A DNA stretch of 64,000 bases. It comes from a virus. The notes under the pieces were generated by a model. That model searched no databases, was not told where the DNA came from, and saw nothing but the letters and a program-made list of their open reading frames with translations. Every line of letters begins with the position of its first letter. Position 1 is the stretch's first letter. Positions 4,775-62,258 of the stretch are shown here, piece by piece. Position numbers and translations under genes: made by a program. The stretch covers positions 1 to 64,000 of the IMG/VR virus record IMGVR_UViG_3300017960_000018; one strand, 5' to 3'.

Positions 4775-4947
4775 GCGAAGCGGCCAAACGGGCCAGAAGG
4801 TTGCGGCAGCAGGGGTTTGACAAGGCGTTCGTGGACCGGTCGACCGGCGCGGTCTGCGTGCGTTGCAGCCAGTGTGAGGCGCTGGTGATATGCGGGGTGC
4901 CCTGCCACGAGAAGGGCTGCCCGAACGAGGTGAGGGATGACGACTGA
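4771..4947 (+). CDS. Small Cys-rich (zinc-ribbon-like) protein
   Basis: A 58-residue ORF from ATG 4771 to TGA 4945. It has a basic N-terminal helix (EAAKRARRLRQQGFDKAF) and then a cysteine cluster CVRCSQCEALVICGVPCHEK with a further CP. The six or seven cysteines within 30 residues suggest zinc binding. It overlaps the gene before by 4 bases and the gene after by 11, fitting the packed operon. Function unknown. Confidence 0.65.
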   Translation: MSEAAKRARRLRQQGFDKAFVDRSTGAVCVRCSQCEALVICGVPCHEKGCPNEVRDDD

Positions 4948-5215
4948 GGAAGACCTGAAAGAGGCGCTGGCCGGCATGTGCTACCAGTTCGCCTACCGCG
5001 GCAAGACGAAAGAGGGCCGCCTGACCATCTGGACGGGCGGCCTTTCTGCACTGGAGCTGGCGTTTCAGGAGCTGGGGTGGGAGGACCCTCACCCTTACCC
5101 GGAAGGGGAATGCCAGAACGAGGGCTGCTACAACGAGGCGACCTGCGGGAAGCCTACACCCGAGGGTTACAAGTTCCTGTGTGGGAGCTGCGATGCCAAA
5201 AAACACTCTCCGTAG
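4937..5215 (+). CDS. Small hypothetical protein with C-terminal Cys cluster
   Basis: A 92-residue protein. The N-terminal half looks helical. The C-terminal half has CQNEGCYNEATCGKP and later FLCGSCDAKKH, arranged like a zinc-binding ribbon. The ATG lies in the last codons of the previous small gene. No family recognised. Confidence 0.65.
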   Translation: MTTEEDLKEALAGMCYQFAYRGKTKEGRLTIWTGGLSALELAFQELGWEDPHPYPEGECQNEGCYNEATCGKPTPEGYKFLCGSCDAKKHSP

Positions 5216-5483
5216 CGTCAAAATCACGTTCGACCGGAAGGATCGCTGCATCGACGAATACGGTGTTTGGGTGTGGTGGTACCGGACTTCTAGCCGCTTT
5301 GCTATCCAGCAGGCCGATAGTGACAACCACGTCGACCCGGACAGAATGATCGGTATCCCACGTAACCTCCGGGTCCTGAAGGCCCTGATCAAGGAGCTGC
5401 AGTGGCACGTGACGGACCTGGAGGCGGACCAGCTGACAAAGGGGACGCTCGATGGAGATACCACCGATGCCGGCGGCACGTAA
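5193..5483 (+). CDS. Tandem paralog family B, copy 1
   Basis: A 96-residue protein. The start at 5193 is preferred because GGGAG lies 5 bases upstream; a frame-compatible start at 5181 lacks one. It belongs to a second tandem family whose members have a beta-rich N-terminal half, an IP(R)(N/D)..VL(R/K) segment, and a C-terminal helix ending (L)EADQL(T)KGTLD. Here the tail is LEADQLTKGTLDG plus nine residues. Function unknown. Confidence 0.65.
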   Translation: MPKNTLRSVKITFDRKDRCIDEYGVWVWWYRTSSRFAIQQADSDNHVDPDRMIGIPRNLRVLKALIKELQWHVTDLEADQLTKGTLDGDTTDAGGT

Positions 5484-5793
5484 GCGCAAGCGCGTGAACT
5501 TCGACGTCAAGATCCCCGTAACAGACAATCATACGGAGGGGGTGATCGGGGGCTTGCGGCTCACCGACTTCCTTGCCGACGAGCACACACCCGTAGGGAA
5601 GGTGTGGTTTACGCCCATAGTCAGGTGGACGTACCCGAGAAGCGGCAAGAAGAGCGAGACGCGCGGAAACATACTGTCGATCCCGCGCGACCCGAAGGCC
5701 CTGCGCAAGATCGCGGCGTTTCTGCTGGACGTGGCCGACGACGCGGAGGCCGATCAACTGACGAAAGGAACACTCGATGCCGAACCAGATTGA
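5452..5793 (+). CDS. Tandem paralog family B, copy 2
   Basis: A 113-residue member with a basic N-terminus (PAARKRKRVNFDVKI), the conserved LSIPRDPKALRKIAAF segment and the tail AEADQLTKGTLDAEPD. Start 5452 follows AAGGGG; an internal ATG at 5467 is possible. Like all family B copies, its start lies in the codons for the LD of the previous copy. Confidence 0.65.
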   Translation: MEIPPMPAARKRKRVNFDVKIPVTDNHTEGVIGGLRLTDFLADEHTPVGKVWFTPIVRWTYPRSGKKSETRGNILSIPRDPKALRKIAAFLLDVADDAEADQLTKGTLDAEPD

Positions 5794-25498: not shown

Positions 25499-27361
25499 GT
25501 GCCGATCGACAACACAGCCGTCTTCTCGTCCTTTCCCAATGAGCCGTCCGGCTCCAACCAGGCCAACCGCTCCAACCGCTTCAGCGGGGCGTTCCCGGAC
25601 CCCTACCTGGACTATGCCTCCACGCAGATGCCGCGCAGCATGTACGACGTGCTGCGCTGGTGCGAGTACGTGTGGATCACCTACGGCACGTACCGCATGG
25701 CCTGCCAGCGCGTGGTCCGGTACTTCCTGACCCGCATCGAGCTGACCGACGCCTCGGACGACGAGAAGGAGAAGTTCGAGGACTTCCTCGGCCCCGAGCA
25801 CCTCAACCTGATGCACGAGTTGGCCAGCTCCGGCGATAACCGGATGGCTTACGGCAACGACTTCATCTCCATGCACGTGCCGTTCCGCCGGCACCTGAAG
25901 TGCCCCAACTGCAAGGCGGAGAGCCCGTTGAAGGGCATGGCCTACCGTTGGATCGGGTGGCGCTTCGAGTCCAAGTGCAAGAAGTGTAAGTACGAGGGCC
26001 GCTTCGAGCGCGTGGACCGCCGGTCCATCGAGCAGGACAAGCTCAGGATCATCCACTGGCCGGCCCACGAGATCCGCATCCTGCACCACCCCATCACCAA
26101 CGAGTCGATGTACTTCTGGGAGATCCCGCCCACGGTCAGGAGCTTGATCGAGCGGGGCAACGAGTTCTACCTGGAGAAGACGCCTTGGGAGATCATCGAG
26201 GCTTGCCGGCAGCGCAAGCTTTTCCGCTTCAACAAGGACGTGATGTTCCACTTGCGCGACGAGCCCATCTCGGGTGTGCGGGACTATGGCTGGGGCATTC
26301 CCCTCATCATGGGGAACTTCAAGCAGGCCTGGCTCATACAGGTCCTGAAGCGCTACAACGAGGCCATTGCGCTGGACTACATCATCCCGTTCCGAGCGGT
26401 GACGCCCAAGCCGGGCACCTCGCGTGAAGCCGACCCGTTGCTGCACATGAACCTGGGCAACTTCCAGAACAAGGTCCTGGGCATGTTCAGGCAGCACCGC
26501 CGCGACCCGACCATGATCCACGCGCTGCCGTTCCCGGTGGAGATGCAGATGTTGGGCGCGGAGGGCAAGCAGCTCGCGCCTTCGGAGCTGCTGGACGCGG
26601 CCACCGACGAGTTTCTCAATGCACAGGGGATACCCGCCGAGCTTTACAAGGGCACGCTGCAACTGCAGGCCATGCCCACGGCGCTGCGCTTGTTCGAGCG
26701 CACATGGGTGTCACTCATAGATGGCTTTAACGCGATGATCAATTGGATATTCAGGCGCGTATCCGATTTAATGAACTGGGAGAACTTGAAGGGAAGACTG
26801 CAACCGGTCACCATGGCCGACGATCTGGAACGGAAGGCCGTCATGCTGCAGCTGGCCGCCGGTCAACAGATCTCCCGCCAAACGGCCCTGGCGCCCTTCG
26901 GCATCGATCTGCGCGAGGAAATCAAGCGCATGTTCGAGGAAGAGGAATACACCCAGGAGCAGATGGCGCGTTTCCAGGAGGAAATGGCGCAGAAGCAGGA
27001 ACTCCAGCAGACCATGCAAATGGGTGCTGCCGGCATGCTGCCGCCAGGTGGCGCGGCCATGCCTCCAGGCGCCGCACCAATGCCAGGGGCGCCGCCTCCG
27101 GCCATGGGCGCTCCCGCCGCTCCCGCCGCCGCCGGCCAGCAGGGCGTCTCCATCGACGACCTGTCCATGCAGGCCGAGCAGGAGGCCCACCGTCTCATCT
27201 CCATGCCGTATGAGATGAGGAAGTCCGAGCTGTTGCAGATCAAGCGATCCAACGAGACGCTGCATGCCCTGATCATCTCCAAAATGGACACACTGAGGAA
27301 TCAGGCCAAGACGCAGGGGGGTCAAATGTTGCTTCAACAGTCCGCGGGTGCCGCGGCGTGA
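25499..27361 (+). CDS. Portal protein with inserted zinc ribbon
   Basis: 620 residues from GTG 25499 (GGAGG upstream). The helical N-terminal region (MYDVLRWCEYVWITYGTYR), a clip/stem-like centre (IPLIMGNFKQAWLIQVLKR) and a late helix followed by a Gln/Met/Pro-rich tail fit a portal ring subunit, the 12-mer through which DNA is packaged. A zinc ribbon (CPNC at about 140, CKKC at about 160) is inserted in the wing region. The C-terminal region holds an M/P/G/A-rich low-complexity stretch (about 505-550). No other protein here suits the role better. Confidence 0.72.
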   Translation: MPIDNTAVFSSFPNEPSGSNQANRSNRFSGAFPDPYLDYASTQMPRSMYDVLRWCEYVWITYGTYRMACQRVVRYFLTRIELTDASDDEKEKFEDFLGPEHLNLMHELASSGDNRMAYGNDFISMHVPFRRHLKCPNCKAESPLKGMAYRWIGWRFESKCKKCKYEGRFERVDRRSIEQDKLRIIHWPAHEIRILHHPITNESMYFWEIPPTVRSLIERGNEFYLEKTPWEIIEACRQRKLFRFNKDVMFHLRDEPISGVRDYGWGIPLIMGNFKQAWLIQVLKRYNEAIALDYIIPFRAVTPKPGTSREADPLLHMNLGNFQNKVLGMFRQHRRDPTMIHALPFPVEMQMLGAEGKQLAPSELLDAATDEFLNAQGIPAELYKGTLQLQAMPTALRLFERTWVSLIDGFNAMINWIFRRVSDLMNWENLKGRLQPVTMADDLERKAVMLQLAAGQQISRQTALAPFGIDLREEIKRMFEEEEYTQEQMARFQEEMAQKQELQQTMQMGAAGMLPPGGAAMPPGAAPMPGAPPPAMGAPAAPAAAGQQGVSIDDLSMQAEQEAHRLISMPYEMRKSELLQIKRSNETLHALIISKMDTLRNQAKTQGGQMLLQQSAGAAA

Positions 27362-31256: not shown

Positions 31257-31267
31257 GGAGGTAGGTG

Positions 31268-32197
31268 ATGGCTGACACTCCGATGTTCAACCCGATTGAC
31301 ATGCAAAACAATCGGATCAAGAACCTGCCCGCTCCCGTCGACGATGACGATCCGTTGCGCAAGGTCGACCAGTCTTCCGGCCCAACCGGGGTTACGGGGG
31401 CCACCGGCGCCTCGGGCGCGGCCGGTACGGACGGCGTGACAGGCGTGACGGGTGCCACCGGCGCGGCCGGTGTTACGGGCGTGACCGGGGTCTCGGGCGC
31501 GGCCGGTACGGACGGTGTCACGGGTGTGACCGGAGCCACAGGCTCCGCAGGGGCTCAGGGTGTGACCGGCGTGACTGGTGCTACAGGTTCCGCCGGGTCA
31601 GCGGGAGCGCAAGGCGTGACCGGCGTGACCGGTGCCACGGGCTCGGCGGGTGCTGCCGGCGCCACGGGTGTGACCGGTGCGCAAGGCGTGACCGGCGTGA
31701 CCGGTGCGACCGGTCTTGGCGTGACCGGCGTGACCGGGGCCACGGGCTCAGCGGGTTCCGTTGGCGCGACAGGCGCCACCGGGGCCACCGGTGCCACAGG
31801 ACCGGCCATCAACGCCACGGAGTCCGCAATCGGTTCGGTTGAGCTGGCTACTGAGGCCGAAGCTAAGGCTGGTGCTACAGGCGCTGGTAGTGTGGGTCCG
31901 CTGGCCGTACGCCCCATTCATCTGATGGTATACCGCGACCCGAACTATGGTACGCTTATCGCCCGCGCAAACCTGACACCGCCGGCCTCAACTCCGTATG
32001 CCCGAGGCTCCTACGCTGTCGAACTTCAGTCTGAGATCAACGCCGACGATCAGGTGGCCTATGGGGCCTATGATGTAGTGGTTGGCAGTCGGAATAAGAG
32101 TACCCTCGGCAGTTACGCCAACGTCGTTCATGGGCGAGCCAATTCCTGCGAGGGCGGTGACAACTTCGTTTTCGGCACGTCAAACAGCATCGGCTAG
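31268..32197 (+). CDS. Collagen-like tail-fibre/adhesin protein
   Basis: 309 residues, ATG 31268 behind GAGGAGG. A short head ([21 protein letters not shown]) resembles the QN.RI.NL..P...DA attachment motif common in phage fibres. A Gly-x-Thr/Ala collagen-like region (about 38-178) follows, and a C-terminal beta region with [15 protein letters not shown]-type repeats starts a YadA-head-like roll that continues in style in the next gene. Collagen-like shafts trimerise. Likely a receptor-binding fibre. Confidence 0.82.
31379..31803 (+). repeat. Collagen-like GVTGATG coding repeats
   Basis: About 47 Gly-x-y triplets built mainly from [10 protein letters not shown] and [10 protein letters not shown] units. 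Synonymous codons vary strongly between units, so the repeat is kept at protein level rather than being a recent DNA expansion. Confidence 0.85.
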
Positions 32198-37994: not shown

Positions 37995-40900
37995 ATGCCT
38001 GAAGCCCTTCTCAATGACACGCTGAGCGCGCCGGTCAAACCAAAACCGGCCGTCACGCATCGCACGTTCGACGACGTGGACACCATGCGCGGCTCCATCT
38101 TCGACGGGGTGCTCGACGCCGTGGCCAAGAAGTACCCGGTCGAGAACACCCGCTATCGCATGGAAGTGGCTGATCTGGGCTACGGCAAGGACAAGCCTTA
38201 CTCCCTGGAAGACCAGAAAAAAGCGATCATGACGGGCCAGACGATGACCCGTCAGCTGTCCGGCACCTGGCGCCTGGTCGATAAGGAGTCGGGCAAGGTC
38301 GTCGATTCAAAGAAGGCCGTGATCGCACACGTGCCCTATGTCACGCCTCGGGGCACCTTCATCTACCGCGGCAACGAGTACACCATCTCCAACCAGATGC
38401 GCCTCAAGCCCGGGGTCTACTCCCGCGTCAAGGACAACGGCATGATCGAGGCCCACTTCAACGTGGCGCCCGGCACCGGCCCGTCCTTCCGCATGTACAT
38501 GGAGCCGGACACCGGCATCTTCCGCCTGGCCGTGGGCCAGTCGACGCTGAAGATGTACCCGATCCTGAAGGCCATGGGCGTGCCCGACCGCGAGATCGAG
38601 CAGATCTGGGGAAAGGAGCTCCTGCAGAAGAACACCGAGGCGGCCGACCCGCGCGCCGTCTCCCGCGCCTTCGCCAAGCTGGTGGCGACCCGCGCGGACC
38701 AGCCGGGCATCGACGCCGACCGGGAAGGGCTGGCCAAAGTCGCCCAGTTCACCCAGGTGGACAACGACCTGGTCGTGGGGCCTTCGCGGGTCCACGGCAA
38801 CGGCTTGTACACGCAGCAGCCCGTCCCGGCCGGCACGCGCGTCACGCCGGCCTACATCCGCATCGGCATGACCGGCGACACCGAGGCCGACTTCGTGCGT
38901 TCCGGGCCGGCGCTGTGGGTCAATCACCAGCCCGACGACATGGCCAACACGGTCACGGCCGTAGCACCCGACGGGCGCATGGCCAACCTGATCGCCACCC
39001 GCGACATCGAGCCGTGGGAGGAGATCACCTGCGACTACGCCAAGAACCACGACACGCTGACGGACTGGGTCAAGCAGCTGTACGACATGGACGAGATGGA
39101 GGCCGAGAGGTCGATCTCCAAGATCGCCATGTCGAAGACGGCGGCCAAGATCCCGACCGTGGCCGTGGACCTGGACGGCACGCTGGCCGAGATGTACGAG
39201 TCCTTCGATCCCAAGAAGATCCCCGACCCCCGCCCCGGCGCGCGCAAGGCCATGAAGAAGTTCCAGGACAAGGGCTACCGGGTCCTGATCCACACCGTGC
39301 GGGGCGACGACCAGCTGACCAAGGACTGGTTGCACAAGCACGACATCCCCTACGACTACGTCAACGAGAACCCGGACCAGCCCGACACTGCATCCGACAA
39401 GCTGATCGCCGACGCCTACGTGGACGACCGCGGCGTGCAGGGTGCGCAGGCCTGGCACAAGATCGAGCAACAGGTCTCCGCCAAGCTGGAGAAGGAAGCC
39501 AAGATCGGTTTCAAGGACCAGGAGATGCGGTGGACGAAGTTGTGGTTCCACGGCACCGTGCGGGCCCAGCGCCAGGGCAACGACGGCAAACCGTGGGTCT
39601 ATGTCCAGGTCCACAAGGGGCTTATGGACGCTGCTCGGGACAGCCTCGCCAATGAAGGCGTGGACATCGAGAAGAACCCCAACGACCCGCACATCACGCT
39701 TCTGCGCTCCAGCGAAGCCCAGGAGCTGATCGACCGGCACGGCGAGGAGCAGTGGAAGGGCGCGGCCAAGGACGGCAAGTCCATACGCTTCGCGCTCAGG
39801 CGCATGATGTCCCTGATCCCGGACGGGTGGGACGGCGTGGACCGGGTCTGGTTCATCGAGGTGGAGAGCCCGGACTTGAAGAAGTACCGGCGCGATCTGG
39901 GTTTTCCCGAGCTGCCCATCGGCGACAACGGCAACGAGCACCGCTTCCACATCACCTTTGCCATCCACCGCTCCAAGAACGAGCCCAAGCGCGCGGCGTA
40001 CCTGCTTTCCGGTGCCGGCATCGGAATCGTGGAGCGCGCCTTTGAGAAGGCCGCCGGGGCCACCGACCAGGGCATCGAGCTCAACCAGGTCTTCGACCGC
40101 ATGGAGCTGGACCCTGACGTGACCAAGTCCACGGTCGGTGAGGGCTTCAAGAACGCCGGCATCCCGACGCTGCTCAGGGTCAGCCAGAAGCTCCTGAACA
40201 TTTCAAAGGGGATGGAGGACACCGACGACCGGGACTCGCTGGCCTACCAGAAGCTGTACGGTCCCGAGGACTTCTTCACCGAGCGCGTGAACCGCGACGC
40301 CGGCCAGACCGGCCGGAAGCTGTTGTGGCGCGCCACGCTGCGGGGCAACCTGAAACACGTGCCTACGGGGGCGCTTTCCGGGCAAATGTTCGGCGTGCTG
40401 CTGAGAAGCGGCATGGGGATGAGTCTCGAAGAGACCAACCCCATGGACATCATGGACCAGAACCTCCGCGTGATCCGCCTGGGCGAGGGCGGCATTCCGT
40501 CGCTGGACTCGGTGCCGGAGGAGAGCCGAAACGTCCAGCCCAGCCACTTCGCCTACCTGGACCCGATCAGAAGCCCGGAGAGCGAGAAGATCGGCGTGGA
40601 CTCGCGCGTGTCCCATCGCGTGATGAAGGGTTCCGACGGGCAGTTCCACGCGCCCATGTTCAACCCGAAGACAGGCAAGGAGGAGATGGTCTCCGCGGCA
40701 AAGGCGGCCGAGTCGGTGGTGGCCTTTCCGGGCGAGCTGAACAAGAAGCGCGGCAAGGTCAGGGCCATGGTCAAGTCCAGGCAGGTCCAGTACGTGGACC
40801 GCAAGGACGTGGACTACGAGGTCGAAGACCCCAACCAGATGTTCACGCTCAGCTCCAACCTGGTTCCCCTGGTGTCGGGCATCAAGGGCGGGCGCCTGCT

Positions 40901-43900
40901 GATGGGCGCCAAGTACTTCACCCAGGCGCTGCCCCTGCGCGAGCGGGAGGCCCCGCTGGTCCGCAACCTGGAGAGGAGCGGCAAGTCCTTTGACGAGCTG
41001 TACGGGGACCGGGTGGGTGCCATACGCGCGCAGGCTCCGGGTGTGGTGACCTCGATGAACAAGAACGGCATCAAGGTCAAGTACGCCGACGGGACCACCA
41101 AGGAGCATGAGCTGTATCGCAACTTCCCCTTCAACCGGAAGAGCCTGACCGGGGATTGCGAGGTGCTGATCAAGCGTAACGGCGAACTCCTTGTTACGCG
41201 ACTGGACGCCTACGAATTCGAGCAGGGGGACCTGACGCTGTCGATCGACCCTGAAACGAAGTTGTCCGCATGGATGGAGGTAACTGGCTATACGCGTCAC
41301 GAGTGTGACAAGCGCCTGTACCGGGTCAAAACGGATTCAGGCAGAGCCTTCACAATAACTGAGGATCACAGCTTGATGGTGATGGGCCCTGAAGGCGATC
41401 TCGTCCCCGCTTACCCAAGCGCTTGCGTCGTTGGGCACACGCGCATACCCGTGGCGCTGCCTCGTTTTGAAGGGTGTCGCGGATTTTTCGGCGAGGACAA
41501 GCTGGGAACGTTGACCGGCCTGTACCTGGCGGAAGGACATATTCCTCAGAACCAGCCCAATCTCATCATCATAGCGGTTGCGCCGGAAGAGCGGGCAGAC
41601 GAGGTAATGCGGCTGTTTCGCGAACTTGGCTGCAAACCTTTCAGGAACGGCGGTTCCGTGTGCGCTACCGATGCTGATTTGAGCAAGTTTCTCATAAAGA
41701 ACTGCGGACACCTTTCGCACGGCAAGTTTATCGGCCGACAGCTGATGAATGCCAACATGTCGTTCAAACAGGCTCTGTTACAAGGCTATTTGGCCGGCGA
41801 CGGCAACTTGTGGGCGGACAGAAACGGCACTGTTCAGCTCACGGCAGTGACCGTATCCAAACGTCTTCGCGACGATCTGGTCGTTCTCGCGGGCACTTTG
41901 GGAGTCTTCACGACGCTTTTCGACGTACCCCGTGACAACGAGGCATGGCGTGACGGCTACGGGCTGCGCTTCCCGAACAAGGAATTGAAGCGGACGCGGT
42001 GGATGTTCTACGAGGACCGTCAACGCCTGCTCGACGCGTTGGTTAGGGAGAACACGCGCGCGTCCAAGTTTGACGTGGTTCCGGTGCCACGGGAAGCGCG
42101 TAAAGCCTTGTATGGCGAGTTGGAAACTGTGCCGCATTTCGTCTACAAAACGGTTAACAAGGGCTACGTGGCGAAACACAGAGTGCGTACGGGGTCTGGT
42201 GTTTTTGGAAAGTGGGGCGCCTCCGACGTGTCCTGGGACCGGATCAAGTCGATTACGGAGGTGCCCAGCGAGGAATATGTTTATGACCTGTCCGTGGCGG
42301 CATCCGAGGCTTTTGCGGTAAACGGCGGCGTCGTTGTCCACAACACGTTCATCCACAACACCCCGACCGTTAAGATCGGGGACCGGGTCCGCAAGGGGCA
42401 GTTGCTGGCCACCAGCAACTACACGGACGACCAGGGCGCGCTGGCGCTGGGCACCAACCTGCGCACCGCCTACGTGCCCTACAAGGGCCTCAACTTCGAG
42501 GACGCCATTGTCATCTCCGAGTCGGCGGCCAAGCGGCTCTCCAGCGAGCACATGTACCAGCACACGCTCGACAAGGAGGACGACACGGTCACGGGGCGCA
42601 AGCAGTTCGTCTCGATCTACCCGACGACCTTCAACCGCAAGCAGCTAGGCGCGCTGGACGAGCGCGGCGTGGCCAAGGTGGGCACCACCATCAAGTACGG
42701 CGACCCCGTGGTGCTGTCCATGCGCAAGAACCAACCCTCGGCCGTGCATCGGGGCCGCAAGCCCATGTACACCGACACCTCCATCACCTGGGATCACGAG
42801 TCCCCGGGCATGGTGACCGGCGTGGACGAGACGGACGACGGCGGCTTCAACGTGACGGTGAAGGCCTACATGCCGGCACAGGAGGGGGACAAGCTGGCCG
42901 GCCGCTACGGCGACAAGGGCGTGATCTCCAAGGTCGTGCCCGACGACCAGATGATGCACGACCGGGACGGCAAGCCCTACGAGATCCTGCTCAACCCGTT
43001 GGGCATCATCACGCGCGGCAACCCCTCCCAGGTGTACGAGACGCTGCTGGGCAAGGTGGCCCGCAAGCGGGGCAAGCCCATTAGTGTGCCGGGCTTCATG
43101 GACGAGAGCATGGTGGACTACGTGCGGAAGGAGCTCAGCCGGGAGCGGATGAAGTCGCATGAGGACCTCTACGACCCGACCACCAACCGCAAGGTGCCGG
43201 ACATCCTGACCGGGGACCGCTTCATCTTCAAGCTGCACCACACCGCCGAGTCCAAGGGCAAGGGCCGCGACGTGGGCGCCTACACCTCCGAGGGCATCCC
43301 GGCCAAGGGCGGCGAGTTGGGCTCAAAGCGGGTCAGCAACATGGAGCAGAACGCCCTGCTGTCCCATGGCGCGACCGGCGTGCTGCGCGACGCCCAGGTG
43401 GTCAGGGGCCAGCGCAACGACGACTTCTGGCGGGCCTTCAGGATGGGCTACACGCCCCCCTCGCCGAGCGTGCCCATGGTCTACGACAAGTTCCTCAACC
43501 ACCTGCGCGGCGCCGGCATCAACGTCAAGAAGAACGGCGACCGGACGCAGCTGCTGGCCATGACCGACAAGGACGTGGACGAGATGACCAGCGGGGAGAT
43601 CACCGAGGCCAAGACGGTGGACTCCGACACGCTCAAGGAGATCGACGGTGGGCTGTTCGATCGCGGGCTCACCGGAGGGCACGGGGGCAGCCGCTGGAGC
43701 CATATAAAACTGGCCGAACCCATGCCCAATCCCGTGATGGAAGAGCCCATTCGTCGCATGTTGGGCCTGACCAAGGTCAAGTTCGAGGAGGTCCTGCAGG
43801 GCAAGGAGGACATCGGCGGCGAGACGGGCACCAAGGCCATCGGGGCGGCGCTGAAGCGCATCAACCTGGACGAGGCCATCGACAACGCCAAGCTGATCAT

Positions 43901-44927
43901 CAAGGACGGCGCGAAGTCCAAGCGGGACAACGCGGTCAAGACGCTGGGCTACTACGAGACGCTCAAGAAGGCCGGGATGAAGCCCAGCGACCTGATGCTC
44001 TCCAAGGTGCCGGTGCTGCCGCCGTCCATGCGCCCGATCACCCAGTACCGGTCCATGCAGCTCTCGGCCGACCCGAACTTCCTGTACCGGGACCTGATCA
44101 ACGCCAACACGGACCTCAAGGAGATCTCGTCCGAGCTGGGCCGCAGGCACGGCGGCAGGGCGCGGTTGCGCACCTACCACGCCTTCAAGGCCGTGACCGG
44201 CCTGGGCGACCCCGTGCAGGCCAAGACCCAGGAGAAGCGGGTCAAGGGTCTCCTGGCCCACGTCTTCGGCTCCAGCCCGAAGTTCGGGATGTTCCAGCGC
44301 CGGGTGCTGGGCAGCCCCGTGGACGTGGTGGGCCGGGCGGCGATCACGCCCAACCCGAGCCTGAGCATGGACCAGGTGGGCATCCCCGAGGACAAGGTCT
44401 GGACGATCTACCGGCCCTTCGTGGTCCGGCGCCTGATCCGCCGCGGCATGCCGGCGATGGACGCGGCCAAGGCTGCGGCCAACCGCACGGAGGTGGCGGC
44501 CAACGCGCTGCAGGAGGAGATTTCCACGCGGCCCGTTCTGATCAACCGCGCGCCCACGCTGCACCGCTACGGGTTCATGGCGGCCTGGCCGGTGCTGACC
44601 AAGGGCAAGACCCTGCAGGTCTCCCCGACCACGGTGGGCGGCTTCAACGCGGACTTCGACGGCGACGCGATGAACTACCACGTGCCGGTGACCGACGAGG
44701 CCGTCGCTGACGCGGTGGACAAGATGCTGCCCAGCAAGAACCTGAAGTCCGCGAGGTTCTTCAAGACCCATTACGTGCCCGTCAACGAGTTCCTGATGGG
44801 CCTGTACCTGGCCAGTACGGCCAAGAGCGACAAGCCGTTACGGGTGTTCCGGGACAAGAAGGACGTGCTGGCTGCCTACCAGCGCGGGGACATCGGCCTG
44901 GGAGACCGTGTTTCCATAAGGAGCTGA
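37995..44927 (+). CDS. RNA polymerase beta fused to N-terminal half of beta', with SET, HAD, 2H domains and intein
   Basis: 2310 residues from ATG 37995. Beta features: VDTMRG..FD N-terminus, VPYVTPRGTFIYRGNEYTIS, MDQNLRVIRLGEGGI plus SHFAYLDPIRSPESEKIG (fork/rifampicin-region equivalent), GLNFEDAIVISESAAKR, GDKLAGRYGDKGVISKV, LNPLGIITRGNPSQ and GGELGSKRVSNMEQNALLSHG. It continues without a stop into beta': RWSHIKLAEPMPNPVME, LPPSMRPITQY, RRVLGSPVDVVGRAAITPNP, RAPTLHRYGFMAAWP, and the catalytic NADFDGD (D2220, D2222, D2224), ending at GDIGLGDRVSIRS. Inserted in beta are SET (about 251-372), HAD (386-500) and 2H phosphoesterase (511-670) domains, and a 396-residue intein. It must work with the beta' C-terminal protein at 48685. 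It is probably a phage-specific RNA polymerase. Confidence 0.93.
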   Translation: MPEALLNDTLSAPVKPKPAVTHRTFDDVDTMRGSIFDGVLDAVAKKYPVENTRYRMEVADLGYGKDKPYSLEDQKKAIMTGQTMTRQLSGTWRLVDKESGKVVDSKKAVIAHVPYVTPRGTFIYRGNEYTISNQMRLKPGVYSRVKDNGMIEAHFNVAPGTGPSFRMYMEPDTGIFRLAVGQSTLKMYPILKAMGVPDREIEQIWGKELLQKNTEAADPRAVSRAFAKLVATRADQPGIDADREGLAKVAQFTQVDNDLVVGPSRVHGNGLYTQQPVPAGTRVTPAYIRIGMTGDTEADFVRSGPALWVNHQPDDMANTVTAVAPDGRMANLIATRDIEPWEEITCDYAKNHDTLTDWVKQLYDMDEMEAERSISKIAMSKTAAKIPTVAVDLDGTLAEMYESFDPKKIPDPRPGARKAMKKFQDKGYRVLIHTVRGDDQLTKDWLHKHDIPYDYVNENPDQPDTASDKLIADAYVDDRGVQGAQAWHKIEQQVSAKLEKEAKIGFKDQEMRWTKLWFHGTVRAQRQGNDGKPWVYVQVHKGLMDAARDSLANEGVDIEKNPNDPHITLLRSSEAQELIDRHGEEQWKGAAKDGKSIRFALRRMMSLIPDGWDGVDRVWFIEVESPDLKKYRRDLGFPELPIGDNGNEHRFHITFAIHRSKNEPKRAAYLLSGAGIGIVERAFEKAAGATDQGIELNQVFDRMELDPDVTKSTVGEGFKNAGIPTLLRVSQKLLNISKGMEDTDDRDSLAYQKLYGPEDFFTERVNRDAGQTGRKLLWRATLRGNLKHVPTGALSGQMFGVLLRSGMGMSLEETNPMDIMDQNLRVIRLGEGGIPSLDSVPEESRNVQPSHFAYLDPIRSPESEKIGVDSRVSHRVMKGSDGQFHAPMFNPKTGKEEMVSAAKAAESVVAFPGELNKKRGKVRAMVKSRQVQYVDRKDVDYEVEDPNQMFTLSSNLVPLVSGIKGGRLLMGAKYFTQALPLREREAPLVRNLERSGKSFDELYGDRVGAIRAQAPGVVTSMNKNGIKVKYADGTTKEHELYRNFPFNRKSLTGDCEVLIKRNGELLVTRLDAYEFEQGDLTLSIDPETKLSAWMEVTGYTRHECDKRLYRVKTDSGRAFTITEDHSLMVMGPEGDLVPAYPSACVVGHTRIPVALPRFEGCRGFFGEDKLGTLTGLYLAEGHIPQNQPNLIIIAVAPEERADEVMRLFRELGCKPFRNGGSVCATDADLSKFLIKNCGHLSHGKFIGRQLMNANMSFKQALLQGYLAGDGNLWADRNGTVQLTAVTVSKRLRDDLVVLAGTLGVFTTLFDVPRDNEAWRDGYGLRFPNKELKRTRWMFYEDRQRLLDALVRENTRASKFDVVPVPREARKALYGELETVPHFVYKTVNKGYVAKHRVRTGSGVFGKWGASDVSWDRIKSITEVPSEEYVYDLSVAASEAFAVNGGVVVHNTFIHNTPTVKIGDRVRKGQLLATSNYTDDQGALALGTNLRTAYVPYKGLNFEDAIVISESAAKRLSSEHMYQHTLDKEDDTVTGRKQFVSIYPTTFNRKQLGALDERGVAKVGTTIKYGDPVVLSMRKNQPSAVHRGRKPMYTDTSITWDHESPGMVTGVDETDDGGFNVTVKAYMPAQEGDKLAGRYGDKGVISKVVPDDQMMHDRDGKPYEILLNPLGIITRGNPSQVYETLLGKVARKRGKPISVPGFMDESMVDYVRKELSRERMKSHEDLYDPTTNRKVPDILTGDRFIFKLHHTAESKGKGRDVGAYTSEGIPAKGGELGSKRVSNMEQNALLSHGATGVLRDAQVVRGQRNDDFWRAFRMGYTPPSPSVPMVYDKFLNHLRGAGINVKKNGDRTQLLAMTDKDVDEMTSGEITEAKTVDSDTLKEIDGGLFDRGLTGGHGGSRWSHIKLAEPMPNPVMEEPIRRMLGLTKVKFEEVLQGKEDIGGETGTKAIGAALKRINLDEAIDNAKLIIKDGAKSKRDNAVKTLGYYETLKKAGMKPSDLMLSKVPVLPPSMRPITQYRSMQLSADPNFLYRDLINANTDLKEISSELGRRHGGRARLRTYHAFKAVTGLGDPVQAKTQEKRVKGLLAHVFGSSPKFGMFQRRVLGSPVDVVGRAAITPNPSLSMDQVGIPEDKVWTIYRPFVVRRLIRRGMPAMDAAKAAANRTEVAANALQEEISTRPVLINRAPTLHRYGFMAAWPVLTKGKTLQVSPTTVGGFNADFDGDAMNYHVPVTDEAVADAVDKMLPSKNLKSARFFKTHYVPVNEFLMGLYLASTAKSDKPLRVFRDKKDVLAAYQRGDIGLGDRVSIRS
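38745..40020 (+). other. Three-enzyme insertion (SET / HAD / 2H) within RNA polymerase beta
   Basis: SET: VHGNGLYT, ALWVNHQPDDMANT (NHSC-like) and DIEPWEEITCDY. HAD: VAVDLDGTLAEM, VLIHTVRGDD and YVDDRGVQ, a phage-type HAD phosphatase layout. 2H: DPHITLLR (H566) and FHITFAIHR (H652), the paired HxT motifs of 2H phosphoesterases. Beta-like sequence resumes after it with MELDPDVTKSTVGEGF. Confidence 0.85.
41157..42344 (+). other. Intein with LAGLIDADG endonuclease in RNA polymerase beta
   Basis: 396 residues from C1055 (GD|CEVLIKRNG) to the terminal HN (GGVVVHN|T). Splice block B is FTITEDHSLMV. The two dodecapeptide-type endonuclease motifs are GLYLAEGHI and LLQGYLAGDGN. The C-terminal YVYDLSV...FAVNGGVVVHN is complete. 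Removal joins NRKSLTGD to TFIHNTPTV, restoring the conserved beta motif equivalent to (S)NQ-D-T-C-x-NQ-P. The DNA looks less GC-rich than its flanks, consistent with separate origin. Confidence 0.9.
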
Positions 44928-46590: not shown

Positions 46591-46838
46591 TGAACGTGCG
46601 TGTGCAGGGCGAGGGCTTCGAGCCCGTGCAGGTTTTGGACAATGTCCAGTCCGTGGTCATTCTGGACGACCACGGGCAGCCGGTCATCGCCGTGCAGCGC
46701 ACGAAGGAGAATCAGATCCTTTCCATCAAAGCCGGGGACCCCCATTTCGACAAGACCTTGGAGGCGATGGGCATCGGGCTGAACGCCCGGGTGGTCAGTG
46801 GGCATTTTCCGAAAGGGGTACCAAGTGATCCGTCCTGA
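46590..46838 (+). CDS. Small beta-rich hypothetical protein
   Basis: 82 residues from ATG 46590 in a TGATG junction. Beta-rich: VRVQGEGFEPVQVLDNVQS, VVILDDHGQPVIAVQ. No family recognised. It overlaps the next gene by 14 bases. Confidence 0.58.
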   Translation: MNVRVQGEGFEPVQVLDNVQSVVILDDHGQPVIAVQRTKENQILSIKAGDPHFDKTLEAMGIGLNARVVSGHFPKGVPSDPS

Positions 46839-48675
46839 TTATGTCCCTCCCCTCCTGCCCGGCGTGGGGCCCCTGTCTTTTGAGAAGGCGGCGGTTGCCC
46901 CCTTGGTGGCGGCTGCCCTGCCCACGGTCGGTAGAGTGGCGGGAGGGTGGCTTTTGCGGCGAGGGGGAGCAGCACTGCTTCGGCGGTTGGGGCAGCGAGT
47001 TATCCCTGCGCTGCGCAGGTTTTTTGGAAGAGGTACTTCAGCGGCACGTTCCGCTCTGCGTGCTGACATTACCCCCAGGAAAGCTTTTGAACGCATACCA
47101 GCACAAGTAAAGTTGCCGAAGCGTGATCCCATCACAGGCAAGAAAGCACCTCGTCACATGCGTGGTTGGCAGGATCGCTCCATGATTACAGAAGGTGTGG
47201 CACCTGGAACGCGTCCGCCTGCGGCGCCTGCCGCAGCGTCAGGGAAGCCGGGATTGGCTACACGTTTCGTTGACTGGGCCACGGGCCGCAAAAATGTGGA
47301 CCCTTCCACGGGCAAAACACCTGGCGTGATGGGTCAGGCCATGAACGTGGGGGGCAAGGTATTGAACACCGCGCTCTACGGGAGCATAGGGGCTGACCTT
47401 TTGGGTTCACTGGGTTCGTTGTGGAAAGGCGGTTCGCCACCTGTAGCGTCCGGGTCTGCGGGACATCAAATGTGGAACTATCCCAAGACGGCCGAGCGTA
47501 GAGCTGCCTTCGAGGAGGGTGTGGACCGGTTTTGCAAGGAAGCCGACTTCGACGACGAGGACAAGCAAGCATTATACACGTTGATCGAAACAGCCGCTGA
47601 GTTGGAAAAGCGGGGCGTGGACACTTGGGAGCTCCTTAAAAAGCCGGTTGTGGACCCTTTGGGCACGTGGATAGGCGTGGGGCATACTCTGCTGTCCGGG
47701 CTGGGAGGAATAGGTTCGGATAAGGGTATCTTAGGAGCAATGGAACACACGGGCAAGAAGTATATGAGAAGTGGACCAAATCCGTTCGAGAAAGGAATTT
47801 CAAGTATCTTTTGGGGCGACCCTGGCGCACGTGCTGAAAGTGCTGCCAAGAAAAATCAAACCCCCGAGCAGCGGGAACAGGCTTCTCGCAGGGATCAGGT
47901 TCGCGGCTTGAGCGAAGAGATCATGAAGGACGAGGGGCTACGCGAAGACATTGAGAGGCGAGGGTTCAGGGAACTAAGGCGCTGGGCCAAATCCAGGAAC
48001 GTGCCGTTGGGCGTGGCACGCGACGCGCTGAAGGGTACGACTTCGGTGCATCCTCAACTCGCTGGTGCGCTAAAACAACCTACGAAGCCCGGTGTTACGC
48101 CCGGTTCACGGCTCATTGGTGTACGAAGCGGAGCTAGGCAAACACAAGGTGGCTCCGTCCCACTCAGGCTGGGTCCAATGCCTGCGGCGAGGCCTCCGGC
48201 TTCAAATACACCTGGAGCGGCGCCCGCACCAACCGAACCCGCCACGGCGCCGGCGGCAAGTACATCCCCTTCTGCCGCCGAGGCGGCTTCATCGTTCAAG
48301 AACCAGGTGAACGCCCGGAACCCCGGCGCGAAGTGGCTCAACCTGAGCAAGGGCGAAGGTGCGATCCTGCCCGTGGATCAGTCGGCCGGCCCGAACCTGC
48401 AGCGCAGGGCCCAGACAAACGCCTTCTTCAACATGCAGCCGCAGCAGGGCAACGTGACCATGGCCCAGCGTGGCGGCACGGGCGTGGAGACGCTCACCCC
48501 GCGTACGCAGTCAAGCAACATGCCCTTCGCGGAGGGTACGGGTTCGCCGTCCACGGGCATGACCGACTTCAGCGACTGGATGAAGACCACCTACGGCGAC
48601 ACCAGTAAGATGACCGACCCCAGCAACATGATCTCTACGGGTGTGGACATGAAGACGCCCAAGCCGAACGTTTAG
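46825..48675 (+). CDS. Large virion-type protein, unrecognised
   Basis: 616 residues from GTG 46825 behind AAAGGGG. The N-terminal 70 residues are Ala/Leu/Arg-rich with a hydrophobic start (AVAPLVAAALPTVGRVAGGW). Several Gly-rich, weakly hydrophobic segments recur (LYGSIGADLLGSLGSLWKGG). A folded-looking part spans about 220-300. The last 200 residues are A/P/T/Q-rich. The DNA of the first two thirds looks less GC-rich than its neighbours. Possibly an internal virion protein. Confidence 0.6.
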   Translation: MIRPDYVPPLLPGVGPLSFEKAAVAPLVAAALPTVGRVAGGWLLRRGGAALLRRLGQRVIPALRRFFGRGTSAARSALRADITPRKAFERIPAQVKLPKRDPITGKKAPRHMRGWQDRSMITEGVAPGTRPPAAPAAASGKPGLATRFVDWATGRKNVDPSTGKTPGVMGQAMNVGGKVLNTALYGSIGADLLGSLGSLWKGGSPPVASGSAGHQMWNYPKTAERRAAFEEGVDRFCKEADFDDEDKQALYTLIETAAELEKRGVDTWELLKKPVVDPLGTWIGVGHTLLSGLGGIGSDKGILGAMEHTGKKYMRSGPNPFEKGISSIFWGDPGARAESAAKKNQTPEQREQASRRDQVRGLSEEIMKDEGLREDIERRGFRELRRWAKSRNVPLGVARDALKGTTSVHPQLAGALKQPTKPGVTPGSRLIGVRSGARQTQGGSVPLRLGPMPAARPPASNTPGAAPAPTEPATAPAASTSPSAAEAASSFKNQVNARNPGAKWLNLSKGEGAILPVDQSAGPNLQRRAQTNAFFNMQPQQGNVTMAQRGGTGVETLTPRTQSSNMPFAEGTGSPSTGMTDFSDWMKTTYGDTSKMTDPSNMISTGVDMKTPKPNV

Positions 48676-51055: not shown

Positions 51056-53647
51056 ATGCCGGCGCCAAACGCATCAGAAAGCAACTTGGAGCGCACCTTT
51101 GCGGACGTGGCGTACGCCCGACTGCGCGACAAGGCTCCCTCCATGCTGGACTACCTGATCGGGTTCCAGCTCGTCGACAAGAACGAAGAGGAGACCCACG
51201 CGGTGGGGATCTTCGGGTTCAAGGTGGGATCAGAGTGGGTCTATGCCCCCGTGTTCTTCATCAACGGGGAGCTGAAGGGCCACGAGCTGATGTACATCAA
51301 GAGCCAGGACGCGTTCGTGCCGATGACCGAGGAGTGGGTCAACTACATCCTCAACCGCAGGCCGTCCGTGCTGGGCGAGCCGGAGGAGCGGGAGCGCAAC
51401 GAAATACCGCTGCGCCAGCCCGACTTCGACGTGTTCGCCCGGAGTCCGTACATCGGCTCCAAGTTCGCGGCGCACACCCGGCCCAGCTTCAATCAGATCG
51501 TGGAGCGGATGGACCCGAACCTGCACGGGTTCATGCCCGTCTTCCACCCCGAGAACTGGCCCAACGGGAAGAAGTACGCGTCGCTGGGCACGCGCTTCAC
51601 CGTGCCCGGAGCGCTCAAGGCGCTGGGCAAGCGGGCGATGCTCAACCTCGTGGCCTCTATGAAGGAGGACGAGAAGTTCGCCAACGCCGTATTGGGGTTC
51701 TACGACCTGAAGAATGACATCGCCGGCTTTGAGAAAGCGGCCAAGGCGGACAAGGACTCCGTCAACTACCAGGAGGACGCGGCCTTCTCGAAGTGTAGCG
51801 CCTGCAACAACTACACGGAGGGCGGCGGCTGCACCCAGGTCTCCGGTGACATCTCACCCAACGCGACCTGTTCCCTGTGGTCCGCCGCGACAGCCAAGCC
51901 GGTGGAACCCATCGAGCCGATCAAGGCCGGCTCCACCGACGCGGACAAAGGCCCGCATACGGAATCGACCGGCAAGGGCAAGAAGCCCAAGAACACCATC
52001 CCCGTGGACAAGCCCGTCACGCAGGAGGAGCAGGACGAGCACGGCCGCGAGGAGGACCTCCTCAACGACCTGCAGCCCGCCATGCCCCTCAAGGGCGCGG
52101 CCCTGGTGATCACGCAGGAGGAGGCCACGCAGTACGACCCCTACCTGACCGACACCGACCGCGAGGCGCTGATGCGGGAACGCTATCTGATCAAGGACGC
52201 CCGGCACGACGACGCGACCTCGCAGGTCTACTCTACCCAGGTCAACACGTCCGTGCAGGGACCGCGCGATCCGGGCCTGTACGACGTCTACAACCGCGAC
52301 GGCGGCACGCGGAAGATGCTGATCATCACCGCGCCGAAGCTCTTCTCGGCGTACGGTCGCCGGGACAAGAACGGCATGTGCGTGGTCGTGGACCTGGACC
52401 AGAAGGCCTACGGCAACTATTTCCCCGTCGACATCCTGACCCGCCAGCAGTATGGCTCCAGCGCCATGAAGAACCTGCTCAACAGTGGCACCGACCCGAA
52501 GAACATGAAGCCCGGGCAGACCGCCGTGCTTGTGGGCCCGGGGTGCAAAGGCACGTGCGTTTTCCAGGTGGACAACAAGCGCACCAACGGCGACGGGCAG
52601 GTGGAGTTCGACGTGTGGGGGCGGGACCACGACATGTCCTCCAACTCGCTGGTCAAGCGGCGCGACACCAACATCTCGGACGACGATTTCTCCGATTCGG
52701 TGCGCAGTCTGGTGATCACGGACAAGGACGTGCCGGACATGCAGCAGGTCGGCGAGGCCCTGTACGTGCCGAAGGGGTTCAAGGCCATCGTGATCCGGGA
52801 GTCGGACAAGCTCAGGGACACCGTCTGTTGCCCCCCGCCGAAGTCCGCGCCGAAGTCCACGCTGGACCTGGGCAACATCAACGACTTCTGGCAGCAGCTG
52901 TGGAAGGCCGCCGGCGAGAAGAAGGGCCGGTACCGCCGCATGCGCATCCTGACCGACGGCATCACCTTCAAGACCGATCTCAACGGGACGCAGGGTCCGC
53001 CCCTGTCCAAGGTGGCCACCCTGAAGACCCTGGTCATGACCTACGGCCTGAACCAGAAGGATGCGGAACTGCTGGTCAAGCAGGCGCAGCCGCGCAAGGC
53101 TTGCAACTACATCGTAAAGCTGGCGCAAGGATACGGTGACGCGCCCGCGCCCGCCTACTTCCCGGAACCGGCTATGGGCAACGAAGGCGGCATCCCGGCC
53201 CCGATCCAGTACCCCCAGCACAACCTGGAGAACCTGGGCCAGATCGATCCGTTCAACCGGGAGATGTACCGCGAGCACAACTACATCGACGAGGGCGCCA
53301 AGCGCTTCGCGGAGAACGCCTCCCAGCAGGGCCAGAAGGAGGTGCTCGACACCGCGGTGATCTCGGGCCTGGTGAAGACCATGGACTCGGACGCCGTCGT
53401 GGACAGCTACATCGGCGACCTGCTGTTGGGGCTGGACCGTATCGGGCGCATCCTGTTCATGTTCTACTGGCACAACGAGGCCTTCAAGGAGCGCTACGGC
53501 CAGCAGGACATGCCGGAGATGGAAGACAACCTTCGCAACGTCTTCAAGAACCTGGGCGAGCTGGCCCTGTTCCTGAAGCAGAAGACGATCGAGCCGGACG
53601 AAGCCGACAGTGGGGAGGCGGAACTGACAAACGTCCTGGCATCATGA
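51056..53647 (+). CDS. Large virion protein with HiPIP-like Cys cluster
   Basis: 863 residues, ATG behind AAGGAG. An N-terminal folded domain (1-230) precedes a Cys cluster CSACNNYTEGGGC...ISPNATCSLW (about 242-270), close to the four-cysteine pattern of high-potential iron-sulfur proteins and of short cluster-bearing phage modules. An acidic linker follows, then a large region with AVLVGPGCKGTCVFQVD and a C-terminal helical domain. Probably a structural protein. An Fe-S cluster is possible but not proved. Confidence 0.65.
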   Translation: MPAPNASESNLERTFADVAYARLRDKAPSMLDYLIGFQLVDKNEEETHAVGIFGFKVGSEWVYAPVFFINGELKGHELMYIKSQDAFVPMTEEWVNYILNRRPSVLGEPEERERNEIPLRQPDFDVFARSPYIGSKFAAHTRPSFNQIVERMDPNLHGFMPVFHPENWPNGKKYASLGTRFTVPGALKALGKRAMLNLVASMKEDEKFANAVLGFYDLKNDIAGFEKAAKADKDSVNYQEDAAFSKCSACNNYTEGGGCTQVSGDISPNATCSLWSAATAKPVEPIEPIKAGSTDADKGPHTESTGKGKKPKNTIPVDKPVTQEEQDEHGREEDLLNDLQPAMPLKGAALVITQEEATQYDPYLTDTDREALMRERYLIKDARHDDATSQVYSTQVNTSVQGPRDPGLYDVYNRDGGTRKMLIITAPKLFSAYGRRDKNGMCVVVDLDQKAYGNYFPVDILTRQQYGSSAMKNLLNSGTDPKNMKPGQTAVLVGPGCKGTCVFQVDNKRTNGDGQVEFDVWGRDHDMSSNSLVKRRDTNISDDDFSDSVRSLVITDKDVPDMQQVGEALYVPKGFKAIVIRESDKLRDTVCCPPPKSAPKSTLDLGNINDFWQQLWKAAGEKKGRYRRMRILTDGITFKTDLNGTQGPPLSKVATLKTLVMTYGLNQKDAELLVKQAQPRKACNYIVKLAQGYGDAPAPAYFPEPAMGNEGGIPAPIQYPQHNLENLGQIDPFNREMYREHNYIDEGAKRFAENASQQGQKEVLDTAVISGLVKTMDSDAVVDSYIGDLLLGLDRIGRILFMFYWHNEAFKERYGQQDMPEMEDNLRNVFKNLGELALFLKQKTIEPDEADSGEAELTNVLAS

Positions 53648-61244: not shown

Positions 61245-61310
61245 TTGGTGCGGGCAGCTGCCAAGAGCGCATCCCGCGAGACGTAAGGCCAATTGATAAG
61301 GAGACAGGCC

Positions 61311-62258
61311 GTGGCTAACCCAACTGCGAGCGAGCCGACCTCTCGGATGGTCAACGATGCATTCATCGATCAGTTGGCCAGCGGGAACGACCGGATCGTG
61401 AAGGAAGCCCAGGACGCGATCAACGATTACGTCCGGGTAAGGATGCGTGAAGATGGCTTCTGGCGGAGAATCCTCCCGCCGGTGACCATCACCAACGACG
61501 AGCTGGATCGGCAGGTGGACACCGACAAGCCCGTCAAGGTGGTCGACAAGGAACCTGAGAGCCCTGCGGCGATCAGCGTGCCTTTTGCCTCGCTGCCCAT
61601 GAACCGGTACATCCGCGGGCCCCGGTTCCGCGTGATGTTCGACCGCATCCTGACGCCCAAGTTCACGAAGGACGTGGACGAGCTCAGGACCTACGACATG
61701 GACATCCGGCAGATCCTGTCGGACAACTCCATCAAGGACATGCTGGCCGAAGAAGACGGCAAGGCGATTGCCACCGTCAACTTCCTGCTCCTCGGCGTCA
61801 ACACGCCCCTGGCCGAGACGGGCGTCGCGCAGTGGGTTGCCATCTCCGGTGGCGTCACCCGCGACAACCTGGCTGAAGCCATGAAGGTGCTCCCCCGCAC
61901 CCCGAACCACCTGAACGTGGCCACGGTGTTGGTCAACAACGTCACCATCTGGGACGTTGTCAAGTTCGGGCGCGACGAGGTCGGTGGTGACCTGTCCCAG
62001 GACCTGTTCGAGAACGGGTTCGCGGAGCGGGAGCTGCTCGGCCGGCGCTGGATCGTCACGATCAAGCGGGACCTGGTGCCTGACAGCACCATCTTCCTGT
62101 TTGCCGCGCCGAAGTTCCTCGGCAAGTTCTTCGTGCTCGAGGACACGACGATGTACATTGATCGCCGTGCCTTCATGCTCGAGTTCTTCGCGTACGAGAG
62201 CATTGGCTCCTCGATCGCGAACGTGGCCGGCATCGGGCGTGTCGACTTCGAGCCCTAA
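61311..62258 (+). CDS. Major capsid protein (HK97-fold-like)
   Basis: 315 residues from GTG 61311, chosen for AAGGAGA 6 bases upstream. The N-terminal arm region (to about residue 110) contains YVRVRMREDGFWRRILPP and PFASLPMNRYIRGPRFRV. The rest has the beta-rich and helical spread of an HK97-like subunit, with a spine-helix candidate (DLSQDLFENGF) and a late P-domain-like FVLEDTTMYIDRRAFMLEF. Position after protease, scaffold and decoration-like genes and before a terminator fits the most abundant virion protein. Two of its N-terminal segments recur in the early genes at 3061 and 3702. Confidence 0.78.
   Translation: MANPTASEPTSRMVNDAFIDQLASGNDRIVKEAQDAINDYVRVRMREDGFWRRILPPVTITNDELDRQVDTDKPVKVVDKEPESPAAISVPFASLPMNRYIRGPRFRVMFDRILTPKFTKDVDELRTYDMDIRQILSDNSIKDMLAEEDGKAIATVNFLLLGVNTPLAETGVAQWVAISGGVTRDNLAEAMKVLPRTPNHLNVATVLVNNVTIWDVVKFGRDEVGGDLSQDLFENGFAERELLGRRWIVTIKRDLVPDSTIFLFAAPKFLGKFFVLEDTTMYIDRRAFMLEFFAYESIGSSIANVAGIGRVDFEP

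Follow-up and report, generated by a model that had tools for sequence, protein, structure and literature searches.

Enzymes carried on packaged polymerases or on other head proteins have been described in several phages. N4-type virion polymerases are fused to a metallopeptidase, ADP-ribosyltransferase, lysozyme or RNase (PMC5512222), the multisubunit virion polymerase of AR9 and PBS1 carries an enzyme (HD) domain on a subunit (PMC7598289), and the virion polymerase of P23-45 lies inside a larger virion protein, gp96 (PMC10770324). Head proteins also carry such enzymes, in that MuF or portal proteins are joined to 2H domains and portal proteins to InPase (PMC5512222). Closest in build are Gp206 of Salmonella phage Arash and its counterpart in Vibrio phage D69, which join beta to the N-terminal part of beta-prime; in Arash the C-terminal part of beta-prime is a separate protein, Gp216. 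Here we describe a fused polymerase gene of this kind in a 64,000-nucleotide stretch of viral DNA (positions 1 to 64,000 of IMG/VR record IMGVR_UViG_3300017960_000018; the whole stretch is called 'the window' below), in which SET-like, HAD-like and 2H phosphoesterase domains are inserted within beta.

The window polymerase differs from each of these systems. The Arash and D69 proteins are 31–32% identical to it over 57–66% of the query and have no insert and no intein. The N4-type enzymes have a T7-type polymerase module, and SET, HAD and 2H are not named with them in the available part of that survey (PMC5512222); AR9 and PBS1 have a single N-terminal HD domain on a C-terminal fragment of beta rather than an internal insert of three domains (PMC7598289), and gp96 joins a clamp-less polymerase to a tape measure protein (PMC10770324). 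In the 2H and InPase fusions to head proteins, the carrier is not a polymerase (PMC5512222). The window phage and its relatives are possible members of the mReC group, described from metagenomes as tailed phages whose beta and beta-prime resemble those of bacteria, with three contigs of >200 kb; in the main text of that study, as far as accessible, the terms intein, insert and virion are absent and 'fused' or 'fusion' is used only for crAssphage (Weinheimer and Aylward 2020, PMC7481178). An earlier reading of the window (hereafter the sequence-only reading) knew of no described RNA polymerase with this domain set; to see it as standing alone goes too far, given the published enzyme fusions of N4-like and AR9-type virion polymerases. 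In the accessible parts of the open-access literature, we found no multisubunit polymerase with such inserts and no SET domain in any polymerase. The window polymerase would be the first known to us in which a lysine methyltransferase is part of the catalytic polypeptide.

The polymerase frame is one uninterrupted open reading frame (ORF; 37995-44924, 2310 codons; Table 1), and an alternative in-frame ATG at 37851 would make the product 48 amino acids longer. ORF, Pfam matches and motif positions agree with the sequence-only reading that the beta motifs and the N-terminal beta-prime motifs through NADFDGD (residue 2218) lie in a single frame. Rpb2_6 (4e-48) and Rpb1_2 (6e-24) scored above the Pfam cut-off, and Rpb2_3, Rpb1_1 and Rpb2_2 (residues 726-754, weak) below it; with beta and beta-prime domains and a DxDxD motif, the product is a multisubunit (two-barrel) RNA polymerase. 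A profile of 14 relatives lacking the insert matched beta (3.5e-138) and beta-prime (4.3e-89) chains in the PDB. AlphaFold2 modelling of residues 1-1076 gave confident polymerase parts on either side of the insert, and this model aligned with bacterial beta at Z 27.8 over 534 residues (27.6 for Escherichia coli). A second record, IMGVR_UViG_3300017991_000001 (211,084 bases), holds a 100% identical protein; it differs from the window by one base over 26,930 compared, and the reads behind the two records may not be independent.

Residues ~233-690 form the insert, and catalytic motifs are present in all three of its domains: HGNGLYT (residue 267), NHQPDDMANT (310) and EEITCDY (342) in the SET-like domain, DLDGT (392) in the HAD-like domain and HIT (566 and 652) in the 2H domain. 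The insertion of SET, HAD and 2H between parts of beta, with every motif named in the sequence-only reading, is thereby upheld. The insert falls within Pfam Rpb2_2, which we take to be the lobe of beta, aligning at about residues 228-240 of Thermus beta, and its edges are low-confidence linkers in the model of residues 1-1076. A chance origin of the motif matches was ruled out by their conservation in three polymerase relatives (L004-L006) and in free-standing relatives of the domains.

By sequence, the first domain belongs to the SET group: it has the GxG, NHxxxxN and ExxxxDY motifs that define the group, together with a profile match. Its Pfam score was 22.0 bits in the window protein against a cut-off of 22.4, and 24.4 bits, above the cut-off, when the genome of the 211-kb contig was searched. 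The motifs align with those of five free-standing SET proteins of ~150 amino acids and one SET-like segment from related phages, and a seven-row profile of the window and these six phage rows matched KMT2D (1.2e-8) and chlorovirus vSET (0.0066). The second domain has the DxDGT, T/S and DD motifs of the HAD superfamily and profile matches to phrog_1238 (8.4e-24), a polynucleotide kinase family (1.4e-9) and PDB entry 2obb (8.1e-9); in Pfam it matched LNS2, below the cut-off, and its structure match was 1xpj (Z 5.7, 72 residues aligned).

The third domain has two HxT/S motifs and a 2H fold match of middling Z, and this assignment leans chiefly on the sequence motifs and on the Pfam 2H-SAK family; the window protein scored 26.9 bits against the 2H-SAK cut-off of 27, and relatives scored above it. 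AlphaFold2 modelled it well, with ten-residue means of the predicted local distance difference test (pLDDT) mostly 74-97. The best match to a 2H enzyme had Z 6.3 (root-mean-square deviation 3.6, 116 residues aligned), and among the 16 structure rows listed with Z of at least 5, 15 were 2H-type enzymes and one was a HAD protein (1xpj). The model was about equally close to Acb1, pox, coronavirus, CPDase, Usb1 and LigT enzymes (Z 5.0-6.3), values below the Z of 8 under which this tool's scores can reflect a common arrangement. Foldseek found no PDB match for the predicted structure at E <0.001 (best, a cyclic phosphodiesterase, 0.028) and three viral-library matches below that value, all to uncharacterised proteins. 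A 2H profile search of PDB sequences returned no 2H chain, giving two Rab chains only, by chance, and PADLOC, whose library covers defence and not counter-defence, had no match for five proteins.

The sequence-only reading had presented the three-domain polymerase as standing alone, and here relatives with subsets of the domains at the same site were found, as were relatives with no insert. Polymerase scans gave 27 loci, the best 80 of at least 477 confirmed loci and a further 79 (best 80 of 297, with a query from another branch in whose alignment 5 of 11 rows had inserts at site III, defined below). Inserts of at least 50 residues were called against a core model in 178 loci, reduced to 133 non-redundant polymerases by dropping rows >97% identical or with <900 of 1453 positions; off-target, duplicate and domain-only loci and search pieces (L001, L025-L029, L032-L036, L115-L143) were excluded before the count. 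Domain inserts were present in 25 of the 133, in a sample biased by the choice of loci for likeness to the window or to an insert-bearing alignment, and they fell at three sites: site I (model positions 226-247) in five loci, site II (253-258) in three and site III (570-588), just ahead of the window's intein, in 17.

At site I, the window virus has SET, HAD and 2H; L004 has HAD and 2H at the same place (56-60% identity); L005 has a Cys-rich segment, 2H and a stretch that looks helical; L006 an unassigned segment and 2H; L003 a short Cys/His segment; and L018 no insert. The two measured of the three site II inserts (L039 and L061) hold a 2H relative without HxT motifs. Of the 17 site III loci, 13 had a pyrophosphatase-like InPase domain scoring over the Pfam threshold (L113, L103, L108, L110, L112, L144, L145, L151, L152, L154, L156, L158 and L204); the rest were InPase below the threshold in L097, a GNAT acetyltransferase in L077 (9600-10172, 1.6e-8), and inserts without an assigned domain in L078 and L194. 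InPase at this site stands just before Rpb2_6 and could remove the pyrophosphate of transcription; in L154, the insert (4711-5541) has, by eye, a ParB-like segment ahead of InPase.

In a FastTree tree of the 133 rows (long branches flagged), the site I loci and the insert-less L018 formed one clade (99), with two changes at site I, one at site II and seven at site III. The simplest story for site I would be that 2H came first, HAD next and SET last, with 2H lost in L003 and one more event, which would be either a loss in L018 or a further gain. Peptide-pattern scans with SET, HAD and 2H singly, which reach close relatives only, returned the 211-kb contig and, for 2H, also the L004 contig. Cellular genomes (84,980 species), scanned with a 2H alignment, yielded 11 pattern hits, none of them a relative, which is weak evidence that this 2H subfamily is confined to phages because one narrow pattern was used.

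The same three activities are encoded near one another in related phages. We compared 32 hand-picked records (the window virus is G001), five of which (G026-G030) were chosen through a 2H scan; a polymerase relative is present in four of the five, whereas in G026 only the 2H was seen. A 2H domain was present in 25 of 32 records and absent from seven (20 of 27 without the scan-chosen five), always as a single copy (none of the 32 has two): four at site I, two at site II and 19 outside the polymerase. SET occurred in eight records and lay inside the polymerase only in the window virus; in the other seven, 475-1315 bp separate it from the 2H match upstream of it, and each of these SET-2H pairs precedes the polymerase by about 6-12 kb (the SET match of G016 is below the cut-off). 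HAD was found in six records, twice beside 2H inside the polymerase (once in the window virus), twice within 2 kb downstream of 2H and twice, weakly, in records that lack 2H. A neighbour protein in L024 joins InPase, HAD and SET-like segments in one chain (SET match weak, 0.017). As these phages are related, such counts amount to few independent events. Both HxT motifs were kept in 13 of the 25 2H domains, including all four at site I; the count of losses includes G022 (L061), whose second motif is unaligned, was scored lost and reads FRLAV by eye. Besides L024 and the window virus, the six records with SET have a 2H lacking both motifs. Two further 2H relatives without HxT motifs (L219 and L220) are fused, by eye, to a NUDIX-looking domain.

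The polymerase sits in the head gene block: the order portal, polymerase, C-terminal beta-prime, gp218 and gp222 homologues, and capsid protein is common to Arash and the window, and with its several domains in this head-gene context the product may be a polyvalent protein, which would also have to be delivered with the DNA. In Arash, Gp206 gave 3516 spectra, making it the most detected virion protein (the capsid protein gave 1333), Gp216 gave 1210, and the proteins identified in the particles included two RNA ligases (data in the available part of PMC10585845). Because the Arash homologue tops that virion proteome, the polymerase of the window phage is likely packaged too.

The gene also encodes an intein, unmentioned in the sequence-only reading, as was the separate gene for C-terminal beta-prime. 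It is recognised by sequence signals (Intein_splicing, 8.7e-15; TIGR01445 and TIGR01443, above cut-off), and the predicted splice junction FPFNRK-TFIHNTP resembles FPFNRK-TFLHNTP and similar sequences in intein-less relatives. The G+C content at third codon positions (GC3) is 0.69 in the intein, 0.90-0.96 in the polymerase core and 0.91-0.95 in the SET, HAD and 2H segments; since only the intein departs from the core, it looks recent and the enzyme domains look long resident. L003, L022, L024, L037 and L039 have inserts of similar length at this position of the model, and inteins were present in 23 of the 133 polymerases (21 changes on the FastTree tree, all positions together).

The reading we favour, to which we give about an even chance, is that a packaged polymerase doubles as the delivery vehicle for a 2H-HAD-SET module. 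The lobe of beta in a virion-type multisubunit polymerase would be the cargo site, and the cargo would have been gained as 2H, then HAD, then SET, each related to adjacent genes upstream of the polymerase in relatives. The intein would excise itself to leave a polypeptide of ~1909 amino acids that assembles with the separate C-terminal beta-prime protein, and the complex would be packed in the head and enter the cell with the DNA; the enzymes and the first transcription would thus arrive together, before phage gene expression. There, 2H could act on 2',3'-cyclic phosphate ends, which it would open, or on related nucleotides; HAD could remove the phosphate and a LigD-type phosphoesterase-ligase, encoded 8 kb upstream of the polymerase, could seal the ends, so that nucleic-acid ends would be healed early in infection, and SET may methylate a lysine of a protein, the host's or the phage's own. 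A role of the ligase as a partner of the 2H-HAD pair is possible. End healing is hinted at most concretely by this phosphoesterase-ligase together with the domains of a protein in L118 (5854-8658, 934 amino acids), where one chain combines predicted 2H, P-loop and LigD 3'-phosphoesterase domains with a weak match to a ligase; LigD_N was found in three of the four records with 2H at site I (the window virus included) against two of 28 others, kinship uncorrected.

Were this reading true, the RNA polymerase injected by a phage would come loaded with first-strike enzymes, and the series 2H, HAD, SET would be a piece of natural engineering that can be tested piecewise; the role of the widespread 2H gene, methylation of host proteins by phage SET at infection and the tolerance of the lobe for cargo would all be open to experiment.

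Several observations weigh against delivery of a healing module. Structure prediction, which upheld 2H with good confidence, gave a low to middling HAD and a poor SET: the SET segment is mostly at pLDDT <55 and is assigned through sequence profiles (free-standing SET rows were left out of the insert run because they were misaligned), and ten-residue means for HAD were 36-71, with HAD poor also in the model of residues 1-1076, whose alignment has few insert rows. The HAD domain is nearest to the BT0820 family (1.9e-13, 50.9 bits, short of the NCBIfam equivalog cut-off of 165 bits) and not to polynucleotide phosphatases. Both HxT motifs are not retained in 12 of the 25 2H relatives, which suggests that catalysis is not the sole use of the fold. 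The link to LigD comes from related genomes and few events, and in the part of the survey that is available, 2H domains of the polyvalent type are never seen with RNA ligases, with RNase or signal-nucleotide roles preferred (PMC5512222). The packaging evidence comes from Arash and not from the window phage, and the Arash homologue is only ~31% identical and has no insert; its authors also allow that abundant proteins may be carry-over (PMC10585845, available part).

A broader view, which we regard as tenable though short of an even chance, is that the packaged multisubunit polymerases of this large phage family serve as a general delivery chassis whose beta loops take exchangeable 2H, HAD, SET, pyrophosphatase, acetyltransferase and Zn-type segments. 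Methylating, RNA-repairing or signal-destroying activities would then act at once beside the nascent phage RNA.

Somewhat further down we place injected counter-defence, which takes up the anti-CBASS idea that the sequence-only reading had called conceivable, a possible but unlikely role in which 2H would cleave cyclic or 2'-5' signal nucleotides (CBASS-like), as Acb1 does, and HAD and SET would hit other defences. The top structure matches include Acb1 (Z 6.2), a penguinpox cGAMP phosphodiesterase (6.3) and murine hepatitis virus (MHV) ns2 (5.7), and nucleotide degradation or RNase activity has been proposed for 2H fused to MuF or portal (PMC5512222, available part). All 2H rows with Z of at least 5, however, lie within 1.3 Z units of one another. 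Changing cargo at one site would fit an arms race, but 2H in 20 of the 27 polymerase-picked records looks like a core gene rather than an optional anti-defence gene, and nearly half of the 2H domains (the 12 above) do not have both catalytic motifs.

That the lobe appendages bind rather than catalyse, aiding packaging, ejection or promoter use through contacts with nucleic acid or with proteins of the virion or host, we consider unlikely as an account of the inserts. Such appendages can be likened to the lineage-specific inserts of bacterial beta, and the presence of one 2H per record in many family members points to a conserved function as a partner. The HxT pair is missing from two site II inserts and ten free or otherwise fused 2H domains that remain recognisable as members of the family, and such frequent loss of the motifs supports binding as the role of some family members. 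The window 2H, HAD and SET domains and all four site I 2H domains have nonetheless kept their catalytic motifs, and the folds at site III are those of other enzymes (InPase, GNAT).

We judge it improbable that the loop is simply tolerant and the domains neutral passengers, or proteins cleaved off after translation that act alone. Low-confidence linkers flank the insert, and polymerases of this family accept inteins in the proportion given above. Constraint on HAD and 2H is nevertheless near that of the core: the ratio of non-synonymous to synonymous differences (pN/pS) against L004 was 0.61 versus 0.47-0.49 for the core, though 0.70-0.73 for 2H against L006 and L005, values compressed by GC3 near 0.95 and showing rough parity only. 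Enzyme domains at three sites, with the repeated changes at site III, speak against neutrality as well. An assembly artefact or a pseudogene joining unrelated genes, the outcome that would have undone the sequence-only reading, was looked for, had no finding in its favour and is extremely improbable, because the same protein is found in the separate 211-kb contig, and the shared architecture of L004-L006 and the parity of GC3 between insert and core also disfavour it.

Table 1. Features of the polymerase locus, with positions in the window
Feature	Position	Strand	Remarks
Portal protein homologue (Arash gp204)	25499..27361	+	
LigD-type 3'-phosphoesterase and ATP-dependent ligase, 514 amino acids	28694..30238	+	between portal and polymerase genes
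RNA polymerase beta and N-terminal beta-prime fusion gene	37995..44927	+	2310 amino acids before predicted splicing
Beta N-terminal part up to insert, residues 22-232	38058..38690	+	pLDDT mostly 79-94
SET domain, residues ~256-365	38760..39089	+	GxG, NH, EEIxxDY motifs; profiles
HAD-like phosphatase domain, residues 376-503	39120..39503	+	DLDGT, HT (HTVRG), VDDRG; profiles
2H phosphoesterase domain, residues ~504-672	39504..40010	+	HIT at 566 and 652; Pfam 2H-SAK
Beta resumes, residues 690-1049	40062..41141	+	Rpb2_2 end (weak match), Rpb2_3
Intein, 401 amino acids, residues 1050-1450	41142..42344	+	Ser1, terminal His-Asn, Thr+1, LAGLIDADG-type domain
C-terminal part of beta (Rpb2_6), continuing into N-terminal part of beta-prime	42345..44924	+	NADFDGD at 44646-44666
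C-terminal part of beta-prime, second polymerase gene, 612 amino acids	48685..50523	+	Pfam, gene order
Major capsid protein homologue (Arash gp226)	61293..62258	+	

The gene for C-terminal beta-prime is flanked by genes for two large proteins (46798-48675 and 51056-53647), and Pfam and PHROGs gave no hit for either of them; the second shows a match to the Arash structural protein gp218. A collagen-like or tail fibre protein (PHROGs) is encoded at 31265-32197. Three records of the phage collection (AFYI01000006, AGRM01000005 and CAKLQH020000005) have annotated rpoB and rpoC in bacterial-looking DNA, with two named Salmonella strains among them. The polymerase gene of L024 (6783-17860) has five intein-like inserts (model positions 401, 512, 595, 815 and 893) and a frame change near model position 795. 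In L019, an ORF of 2052 codons apparently holds, by eye, beta and the remaining beta-prime in one chain, and the ORF of L020 has 2127 codons.

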